Shown here: positions 8,580 through 56,665 of the stretch, in pieces
Layout: the number at the start of each line of letters is the position of its first letter
How positions within the stretch are numbered: position 1 is the stretch's first letter
NCBI RefSeq assembly: GCF_030413615.1
Contig: NZ_CP129236.1
Location: 101,001-165,000 of the forward strand
Source: Planococcus shixiaomingii
GTDB taxonomy: Bacteria; Bacillota; Bacilli; Bacillales_A; Planococcaceae
Length of the DNA stretch: 64,000 nucleotides
Reading direction: 5' to 3'
Made by a program: the position numbers and the translations under genes
The notes under the pieces: model-generated
What the model saw: only the letters and a program-made list of their open reading frames with translations
Told to the model about the DNA's origin: nothing
The model's database searches: none

Positions 8580-8826
8580 TAAGAAATCGTTGACGAGAAT
8601 AAGTACATGCAGCACGCCCTAAAGAGAGGATCCTCACCGGCTGAAAAGGATCCGAGCCACTGCAGCATGGAAATGCCTCTCTGAGTGCTGAGTCGAATTA
8701 AGTAGACCAGACGTATTGCCTGCGTTAAAGGCGTTCGAGAGAAAAGGGATCCATCCCTTTTAATCAGAGTGGAACCGCGCAACTATGCGTCTCTGTCATG
8801 TAAATGACAGGGGCGCTTTTTATTTT
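8580..8826 (+). promoter_or_regulatory. T-box leader with cysteine specifier (TGC), upstream of cysE-cysS
   Basis: The leader carries the T-box hallmark AGAGTGGAACCGCG (8766-8779). Stem I closes with AGAGAG (8623-8628) against CTCTCT (8677-8682), and the triplet just 5' of the latter is TGC (8674-8676), a Cys codon. The T-box bulge TGGA can pair with a tRNA ending in UCCA, which fits the U discriminator of tRNA-Cys. The alternative terminator is the stem at 8787-8799/8804-8816 with a GTAA loop followed by TTTTTATTTT. Uncharged tRNA-Cys would favour readthrough into cysE and cysS. Confidence 0.93.
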
Positions 8827-15973: not shown

Positions 15974-16163
15974 GTTGTGAAATATCCATTTGTACCGCAG
16001 ACAGCAGGGGCGCTAGCCGCTTAATTTATCCCTGCCGAGGACATGATGAATTCAGTAAACATCTTTTTGATGCTGACTTTATGCCTCTGTGTCTGTTAAA
16101 AGACCAGAGGCTTTTCTTATGTTGGGAAACGGTATAAGTGAAAAATCTATAGGAGGTGCCAAA
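15974..16163 (+). promoter_or_regulatory. L10 leader RNA (rplJ autoregulation)
   Basis: The approximately 190-nt leader between the promoter and rplJ holds several helices. It ends with a terminator-like hairpin GCCTCTG (16083-16089)/CAGAGGC (16105-16111) followed by TTTTCTT. Position and architecture match the L10 leader of Firmicutes, where the L10(L12)4 complex binds the mRNA. Assignment is by context, not by covariance search. Confidence 0.8.
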
Positions 16164-52867: not shown

Positions 52868-53581
<714 letters not shown>

Positions 53582-53589
53582 TACTCGGC

Positions 53590-53935
53590 GCCGGGCGCAG
53601 TTAGTTGCCTCCATGTGGCTTTAAGGGGCACAGGAGAAATGAATTCTCGAGAGCTGCAAAAGCATAAATGCCTGGTTATACGAAATTCAGTGTCGATTGT
53701 CTTAGGCCTTTAAGCCGTGCATTTCAGCACTGGACGGAGTATAATGGGTTTCGTGGAAGCATCTGTGTAACGGGTTTGGAACTCATCCAAGGCAGTCCGG
53801 GCGGCCGAGGATACATGAGGCAGACTGGCAACCGGATTACCCCCGACCTGCATTAGTAGGAAGCGGAACTCGGAAACTTGCCTTCACTGTCACTCATGCA
53901 ATCCTGGTGAATGAATGTAGCACTATTGTTCAATC
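53590..53935 (+). pseudogene. map: Degenerate map (methionine aminopeptidase) with internal deletion and frameshifts
   Basis: No intact gene exists between adk and infA, although map belongs there. One frame encodes YNGFRGSICV (53740-53769), a signature of type I methionine aminopeptidases, followed by LELIQGSPG (53776-53802), which corresponds to EELVHGIPG. Upstream, ELQKH (53651-53665) in another frame and MPG-Y-TK (53668 on) match the ELKKHI-PG-TTKELD region. Downstream, GYMRQTGN-RITPD (53809-53847) resembles the late ADNW-TPD region. In a third frame, VTHAILVNE (53889-53915) resembles the C-terminal EHTILVTE. About 140 central codons with the metal ligands are gone. The match relies on recalled Map sequences. 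Confidence 0.78.
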
Positions 53936-53992
53936 AGCAAATACTGTTTGAAGATGAGATCCTAATTTGTATACAGAAGGGAGACTGGGTCG

Positions 53993-54211
53993 ATGGCGAA
54001 AGACGATGTAATTGAAATCGAAGGAACAGTCATTGAGACTTTGCCTAACGCGATGTTTAAAGTAGAATTGGAAAATGGCCATACGATTCTTGCGCATGTT
54101 TCTGGCAAGATCCGCATGCACTTTATCCGCATTCTGCCAGGAGATAAAGTAACAGTGGAACTTTCTCCTTACGATTTAACTCGCGGTCGTATCACATACC
54201 GTTTTAAATAA
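53993..54211 (+). CDS. infA: Translation initiation factor IF-1
   Basis: IF-1 occupies the ribosomal A site during initiation. The 72-residue OB-fold protein begins [20 protein letters not shown] and contains [27 protein letters not shown] precedes the ATG. It resumes the operon after the map remnant. Confidence 0.97.
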
Positions 54212-54248: not shown

Positions 54249-54362
<114 letters not shown>

Positions 54363-54385
54363 AATGAGGGAGGTGCATGGCACAC

Positions 54386-54751
54386 ATGGCACGTATTGCT
54401 GGTGTTGACATTCCACGCGACAAACGCGTTGTTATTTCATTAACATATATTTTCGGTGTTGGTAAAACAACTGCTCAGAAAGTTCTTTCTGCAGCTGGCA
54501 TTTCTGAAGATACACGAGTTCGTGATCTTACAGAAGATGAGTTGAACAATATCCGTGAACAATTGGATCAATACAAAATTGAAGGTGACCTTCGCCGTGA
54601 AGTATCAATGAACATCAAGCGATTGATGGAAATTGCTAGCTTCCGAGGTATTCGTCACCGCCGTGGACTACCTGTACGCGGTCAAAATACGAAGAACAAT
54701 GCGCGTACGCGTAAAGGTCCTCGTAAAACTGTAGCGAACAAGAAAAAATAA
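54386..54751 (+). CDS. rpsM: 30S ribosomal protein S13
   Basis: S13 contacts the P-site tRNA and bridge B1. Two in-frame ATGs exist: 54377 is only 3 nt from the SD GGAGG, while 54386 is 12 nt away and gives the conserved [15 protein letters not shown] start and 121 residues, the family length. [20 protein letters not shown] is diagnostic. Confidence 0.94.
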
Positions 54752-54758
54752 TCAGTAA

Positions 54759-55166
<408 letters not shown>

Positions 55167-55297
55167 TCGTTTATCTGAATCGGATTTTTGAACATCACGA
55201 CATACTGAATGTGTTCTAAACCGTAGCGAAAGTCTTAGACTCTCGAGTTCTTGATGAAACGAAAATAAACACCGACGTTTTGAAGGAGGGTAAATGA

Positions 55298-56242
55298 ATG
55301 CTCGAAATAGAAAAACCAAAGATTGAAACGATTGAGATCGATAGCAATTCCAAATATGGAAAATTTGTTATTGAACCTCTTGAGCGTGGATATGGAACCA
55401 CTTTAGGAAACTCCTTACGTCGAATCTTACTTTCATCTTTACCAGGCGCTGCAGTTACTTCAATTCAAATTGACGGTGTTTTGCACGAATTCTCTACAGT
55501 TGATGGTGTAGAAGAAGATGTGGCATCAATTATTTTGAACATTAAGAAGCTTGCGCTGAAAATTTACTCTGACGAAGAAAAAGTCATTGAAATTGATATT
55601 AAAGGTGATGGAACGGTTACGGCTGCAGATATCACTCACGATAGTGACGTGGAAATTCTGAATCCGGATCTTTATATTGCTACAATCGCAAAAAATGGCC
55701 ATCTCCGTATGCGTATGTATGCGAACCGAGGCCGTGGATATGCCCGTGCAGATCAGAACAAACGTGAAGATCTTCCAATTGGTGTTATTCCGATTGACTC
55801 TATTTATACTCCTGTTTCACGCGTTAATTTCCAGGTAGAAAACACTCGAGTGGGCCAGTTGGCGCATTTCGATAAACTTTCTCTTGATGTCTGGACAGAT
55901 GGCAGCATCGGTCCGAAAGAGGCAATTGCGCTTGGAGCAAGAATTTTTACCGAGCATTTAAATATCTTCGTGGGATTGACAGACGAGGCGCAAACGACTG
56001 AAATCATGGTTGAAAAAGAAGAAGACCAAAAAGAAAAAGTTCTAGAGATGACTATTGAAGAACTGGATCTTTCGGTACGTTCTTACAACTGCTTAAAACG
56101 TGCGGGTATCAACACGGTACACGAACTGGCTAGCAAGTCGGAAGACGACATGATGAAAGTCCGCAACCTTGGACGCAAATCACTTGAAGAAGTTAAAGTG
56201 AAGTTGGAAGATTTAGGACTAGGACTTCGTAAAGAAGACTGA
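55298..56242 (+). CDS. rpoA: RNA polymerase subunit alpha
   Basis: Alpha dimerizes to start RNA polymerase assembly and binds UP elements. The 314 residues comprise the N-terminal domain ([20 protein letters not shown]) and the C-terminal helix-hairpin domain ([34 protein letters not shown]). GAAGGAGGG precedes ATG 55298. Confidence 0.97.
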
Positions 56243-56290
56243 TTGCCTTAAACTCTGATCCGAACTATTTACCAAAGGAGGGAAACTTCA

Positions 56291-56665
56291 ATGAGAAAGC
56301 TTCAACGTACAAGTTCTCAACGTAAAGCACTATTACGTGACCTTACAACAGACTTAATCGTACATGAGCGCATTCAAACGACTGAAGCTCGTGCGAAAGA
56401 AGTGCGTTCTACTGTAGAAAAAATGATTACTTTAGGCAAACGTGGAGATGTTCACGCTCGTCGTAAAGCTGCAGAATGGATGCGTCGTGAATTGGTTACA
56501 TCTACTGATGAGGAAGGTAACGAGTCAACGATCTTTGCTTTGCAAAAATTGTTTGATGATGTTGCACCACGTTATGCAGAACGCCAAGGCGGATACACTC
56601 GCATTATGAAAATGGGGCCTCGTCGCGGAGACGGCGCACCAATCGTAATTATCGAATTAGTTTAA
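56291..56665 (+). CDS. rplQ: 50S ribosomal protein L17
   Basis: L17 sits near the tunnel exit. The 124 residues begin [20 protein letters not shown] and end with [29 protein letters not shown] is the SD. It is the last gene of the alpha operon. Confidence 0.96.

Follow-up and report, generated by a model that had tools for sequence, protein, structure and literature searches.

Ordinary bacterial pseudogenes are typically expected to erode. The described systems that lie closest to the locus presented here are pseudogenes whose activity is covered by a paralogue, sigma-A promoters situated inside coding sequence, the infA-rpoA unit of Bacillus subtilis and the untranslated leaders of ribosomal protein genes. 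According to PMC4495994, the start of the B. subtilis rpoA unit lies upstream of infA, and the organism keeps mapA.

The locus of interest is the interval between adk and infA in a 64,000-nt stretch of the Planococcus shixiaomingii genome, the whole of which is termed the window. Like a pseudogene covered by a paralogue, it holds a remnant of map with broken frames, the catalytic half of the gene is gone and another Map is encoded elsewhere; unlike such pseudogenes, pieces of the remnant are under purifying selection across an entire family. Its likeness to intragenic sigma-A promoters lies in a candidate promoter, P2, whose -35 element, 17-bp spacer and TATAAT are placed in coding sequence and read towards the next genes, whereas here the host gene is dead and the putative promoter has outlived it. 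A control region upstream of infA would agree with the B. subtilis infA-rpoA unit, unlike the state of mapA itself. As with ribosomal protein leaders, of which the window has an example in its L10 leader, a long conserved untranslated stretch stands before translation genes, but this one has no Rfam match and no significant covariation. We consider it likely that the interval is an ancient mapA pseudogene, kept by selection as control sequence for infA-rpmJ-rpsM-rpsK-rpoA-rplQ.

Results

Identity of the adk-infA gap

With reference to Table 1, 411 nt separate the adk stop (53581) from the infA start (53993), and the ORF list places no intact gene within them. A first-pass annotation, made from the letters of the window, had proposed that this site carries Map-like sequence and no intact map, and both proposals were borne out, the former by similarity search, profiles and shuffled controls. 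When 53582-53992 was compared with intact outgroup Map proteins, by tblastn of the gap alone, the best match (E 2e-7, 44% identity) covered codons 53-95, and a map-DNA profile matched 53739-53820 (15.9 bits, E 6e-8), both E-values referring to a search space of this one stretch. The Map protein profile reached 11.3 bits in the frame of YNGFRGSICV versus a maximum of 4.3 bits over 500 shuffled gaps, and a non-significant -2.9 bits on the VTHAILVNE frame alone, so that in this window by itself only the first part of the remnant is recognisable as Map.

A profile derived from the gaps of the family matched intact map in two collinear blocks (nt 72-266 and 383-480, E to 1e-16); with 320 shuffled map genes, the gap profile gave no match under default filters and one at E 7.3 with the filters off. 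Since two collinear stretches of map are matched in this way, the remnant is read as map codons ~24-89 and ~128-160. The profile match leaves codons ~90-127 and those after ~160 uncovered, in line with the annotation's description of the catalytic part as lost, and translations show the open frame to be destroyed. The annotation had further suggested a deletion between short repeats at Gly-x-Arg codons; the region that this would concern, between the two blocks, is variable across alignments. We take the metal ligands of Map to fall in codons ~90-127 and after ~160. On these comparisons, the gap is confirmed as a dead type I methionine aminopeptidase gene (map, mapA).

The placement of the fragments in three different frames needed correction. 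YNGFRGSICV and ELIQGSPG share one frame (ORF 53668-53856), while that of VTHAILVNE does differ; the latter segment, formerly taken for C-terminal sequence, aligns instead with the mid-protein RLSNISHAIQ at map codons ~145-155. At its place the alignments of relatives show GTCTTTCGAACATC.CTCATGCAATCC (RLSNISHAIQ), and the segment is much altered in this species. The small KOW gene was rightly reported absent before infA, no KOW-type ORF being seen by eye in 53582-53992. A class-level relative (L237, gap 515 nt) is without map, yet a KOW-type ORF before infA is apparently kept there (by eye). Across the window as a whole, just two features exceed the Rfam gathering score, a T-box leader (8581-8797) and the L10 leader (15977-16126).

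Table 1 Features of the adk-infA region, in window coordinates
Feature	Position	Strand	Basis or rate
adk, intact, 217 aa + stop	52928..53581	+	ORF list; listed ORF begins upstream at 52871
adk-infA gap, map remnant + infA leader, 411 nt	53582..53992	+	Map similarity
Block A / candidate promoter P1, AGCTGCAAAAGC ... TATA (map codons ELQKHI.PGI)	53652..53680	+	
P2, -35-like hexamer GTGCAT (NTGCAW)	53717..53722	+	7.7 changes per site
Block C, GTATAATGGGTTTCGTGGAAGCATCTGTGTAACGGG, -10 + start of predicted transcript	53739..53774	+	Alignments, site rates
P2, -10 hexamer TATAAT	53740..53745	+	3.3 changes per site
Block D, GGAACTCATCCAAGGCAGTCC (map codons EELVHGIPG)	53778..53798	+	Alignments, site rates
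Block E, core TGCCTTC..TCACTCATGC (map codons RLSNISHAIQ)	53860..53904	+	
infA ribosome-binding site, GAAGGGAGAC	53976..53985	+	1.6 changes per site over 53974-53985
infA (IF-1), first gene of presumed unit infA-rpmJ-rpsM-rpsK-rpoA-rplQ	53993..54211	+	ORF list; name presumed by us from the translation
rpmJ, rpsM, rpsK, rpoA, rplQ	54249..56665	+	ORF list; names presumed by us from the translations

Extent of the loss

The idea of a fresh decay, private to the strain, had to be given up, as alignment with relatives shows the loss to be common to the family; recent private decay is thereby ruled out. Retrieval with Adk gave 80 named loci. In 78 of them the gap is short (351-631 nt, measured between tblastn ends); the other two, both from Jeotgalibacillus, have a gap of about 1080 nt with an intact map. 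A complete or partial match to the adk-infA stretch was obtained for 259 of the 261 family genomes and for 19 of 19 genera, a tally of stretch matches, the gaps themselves having been read in part of those genomes; the two genomes with no stretch match (G120 and G137) are assemblies 87% and 81% complete. The 220 loci that were read reduce to 173 distinct ones and, minus the two Jeotgalibacillus, to 171 gaps of Planococcaceae/Caryophanaceae. These distinct gaps measure 294-616 nt, none being long enough for an intact map (about 744 nt).

Of 18 class-level loci, 14 carry an intact map between adk and infA, as do the two Jeotgalibacillus. In a phylogenomic study (PMC6971209), Jeotgalibacillus groups with Bacillaceae, outside the monophyletic family; a single map loss at the base of the family would fit, because Jeotgalibacillus, with its intact map, branches outside it.

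The remaining Map

The annotation had reasoned that the activity must come from another locus, and a second Map was indeed found in the genome of the window. It is full-length (G000:C1:1074237-1074968, 293 bits) and diverged from mapA. In 259 of 261 family genomes, one or more full-length Map proteins score above the curated cut-off, the misses being G127 and G271. Both are fragmented assemblies (310 and 640 contigs, respectively), and their Map perhaps lies in missing sequence. At E <= 1e-40, G282 and G283 each gave two Map matches, whereas any other family genome that matched gave one, among the matches listed.

When 151 genomes drawn from the class were searched with a Jeotgalibacillus Map, 121 gave a match at E <= 1e-60, some of them solely via copies of about 50% identity. 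At this threshold 12 of the 12 family genomes among those listed had no match to the Jeotgalibacillus Map, and the same held for 10 further class genomes.

Rates of change across the gap

Changes were counted by parsimony on an adk+infA tree of 168 sequences, over columns of at least 70% occupancy and with gaps treated as missing data, which lowers the counts somewhat. Three insertion-bearing gaps (L057, L060 and L076) were left out of these counts to arrive at 168, L128 was left out as being without infA, and near-identical rows were left out of some of the alignment, block E motif, consensus-fold and alignment-z sets. The insertion in L060, and by length also in L057 and L076 (gaps 610-616 nt), is of ~190 nt and lies in the infA leader downstream of block E; that of L060 has inverted repeats and is MITE- or REP-like by eye.

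The 394 gap columns have a mean of 9.3 changes (10.1 when scaled by occupancy) versus 24.4 at 51 four-fold adk sites, and 87 of the 394 fall below the fifth percentile of the four-fold sites. The slow sites are clustered in blocks A, C, D and E and in the ribosome-binding site. These rates are indicative of strong purifying selection on parts of the remnant as non-coding DNA; the earlier description of the locus as decayed thus holds for map as a gene and fails for those parts.

With 4.0 changes per site over 53877-53901, block E comes close to the P2 promoter in conservation, which a promoter would not explain. In other genera it reads GTCTTTCGAACATC.CTCATGC; when up to 2 substitutions are allowed, its core TCTTTCGAACATC is found in 119 of 171 gaps, and a loose motif occurs in 168 of 171, the block being masked as N in L066. 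Two gaps of one genus (L114 and L115, 294-296 nt) keep P2 and block D and have no block E, so that the block is dispensable in at least one genus.

Candidate promoters within the remnant

The TATAAT of P2 corresponds to the Tyr-Asn codons of the Map motif GYNGFRGS and ends 247 nt before infA in this window. When NTGCAW-N-TATAAT was sought with spacings of 16-18 allowed, 125 of the 171 gaps matched, all at exactly 17, versus 0.12% of mononucleotide shuffles and 0 of 171 adk controls. TATAAT as such occurs in 153 of 171 gaps, in 149 of these at the place of P2. The spacer of P2 accumulated 24.0 changes per site, the neutral rate when set beside the 24.4 of four-fold adk sites. P2 is most likely a sigma-A-like promoter, because this spacer is fixed in length and free in sequence between two fixed hexamers.

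The full signature is missing in 46 of 171 gaps. Solibacillus retains the -10 of P2 with the -35 gone, and in some Ureibacillus, among the sequences listed, TGTTAA replaces TATAAT. By consensus the -35 is weak, with few matches to TTGACA, and P2 was not among the predictions of a standard promoter scan. In block A, the candidate P1 has a YTGCAA-to-TATA spacing of 17 in 65, 19 in 41, 18 in 21, 16 in 4 and 15 in 3 of the 134 gaps (of 171) that match; since the spacing varies from 15 to 19, P1 is left as a candidate.

The elements of P2 are also found inside living map genes. Of 41 intact outgroup map genes, 38 were scored, the 3 without a GYNGF-type motif being left out. TGCAA-N17-TATAAT is present in 7 of these 38, which make up 7 of the 9 with a Map identity of at least 81%, and is absent from both Jeotgalibacillus map genes. 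In the eight nearest outgroup genes, synonymous sites around P2 have a value of 0.452 versus an average of 0.537 (p 0.023, uncorrected); over all 41 outgroup genes no synonymous constraint was detected at P2 (p 0.21), and it is at codons ~173-182, away from P2, that the synonymous windows of the outgroup genes are lowest. For blocks A, D and E, the intact outgroup genes gave no sign of synonymous constraint. Given the signature inside living map genes and the slight synonymous constraint at P2, with none at A, D and E, the P2 promoter may predate the gene loss, and the constraint on blocks A, D and E seems to have arisen later. Two of the four class-level map-less gaps (L238 and L239) also contain TATAAT.

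Discussion

Alternative explanations

The best surviving alternative, which we nevertheless hold to be unlikely, is that the remnant is a conserved structured RNA, either an infA leader or a small RNA of its own, with a fold that regulates translation or termination and with the blocks as its loops. The conserved blocks C, D and E do all lie downstream of the promoter, and hairpins recur, by eye, in single genera: Sporosarcina has them in the promoter spacer, Lysinibacillus and its relatives around block E. The alignment-fold z is below -3 in 7 of 25 plus-strand versus 2 of 25 minus-strand windows (mean -1.58 vs -0.84). However, a tree-aware covariation test yielded no pair at E < 0.05 and two at E < 0.5, one of which (E 0.28) is a standard pair, both of these measures having been taken on four small groups with low power. 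The folding energy of 22 chosen sequences is no better than that of adk coding controls (mean z -1.94 and -0.87 vs -2.03 and -1.48), and consensus folds vary, by eye, between genera. Between block E and the infA ribosome-binding site, pairing exceeds 0.3 in 49 of the 149 gaps (of 171) in which it was scored; one further alignment-based scoring of the blocks took 141 of the 171 gaps. The gap of the window has no Rfam match over gathering score.

Plain neutral decay, with erosion still incomplete, would account for real Map similarity, broken frames and the loss of large parts in some genera. It is rendered highly improbable by a remnant common to the whole family and by the uneven rates in it, since the -10 hexamer (3.3 changes per site) and block A (2.0 over 53652-53663) stand against a P2 spacer that changes like four-fold sites. 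A plain map pseudogene would have no constraint left, whereas the site rates reveal constraint in the gap.

Very little credence is likewise given to a small protein still being made from ORF 53668-53856 (62 aa, with YNGFRGSICVTGLELIQGSPGG). In 151 sequences tested, the frame that passes through TATAAT stays open over a median of 61 codons, but in 40 of these 151 a stop follows at most 25 codons downstream. The changes in block C, judged by eye from the per-site numbers, have no third-position excess, and in Psychrobacillus and Sporosarcina the frame is shifted by indels beyond block C (by eye, among the sequences listed).

An assembly error over an intact map, in favour of which nothing was found, is contradicted by the short gaps of 78 of 80 named assemblies from different projects and has a negligible probability.

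Proposed history of the remnant

Our preferred reading, a mapA pseudogene retained as control sequence, would have the following history. Before its loss, map probably carried a sigma-A-type promoter within the codons for (G/D/N)-A-(I/T)-PSFKG-YN. In the family ancestor, a diverged second Map would have taken over the supply of the enzyme, upon which mapA could lose its coding function. The promoter would have stayed in place while the surrounding sequence drifted or was deleted, and selection would now retain those parts of the remnant that act as control sequence for infA-rpmJ-rpsM-rpsK-rpoA-rplQ. The same control region would also take in blocks A, D and E, possibly in the roles of a second promoter and a leader. 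We infer the promoter activity of P2, its service to the infA unit, its activity before the loss and the order of events.

A bolder version, which we put forward tentatively and hold to be somewhat doubtful, is that the protein gene as a whole was turned into a control element common to the family, with blocks A, D and E, in addition to the inherited promoter, gaining new cis-regulatory work after the loss. Under that version, the new work might be that of a second promoter, or of a leader RNA controlling IF-1, rpoA and ribosomal proteins.

Significance

A dead mapA with a living Map elsewhere is the ordinary part of this finding, and an internal promoter with further blocks constant across the family the uncommon one. 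No paper treating this remnant was found by title or abstract, in a literature search that covered a minority of subscription journals.

Overall, the locus offers a clean case in which the control function of a protein-coding gene is separated from its coding function: once the coding constraint was gone, the sites that still do not change would delineate the promoter base by base. It also suggests that, in an operon that ranks among the most conserved in bacteria, conserved "gaps" can conceal promoters that arose within genes. Finally, it provides a natural experiment on the control of infA, rpoA and the adjoining ribosomal proteins separately from the S10-spc genes.
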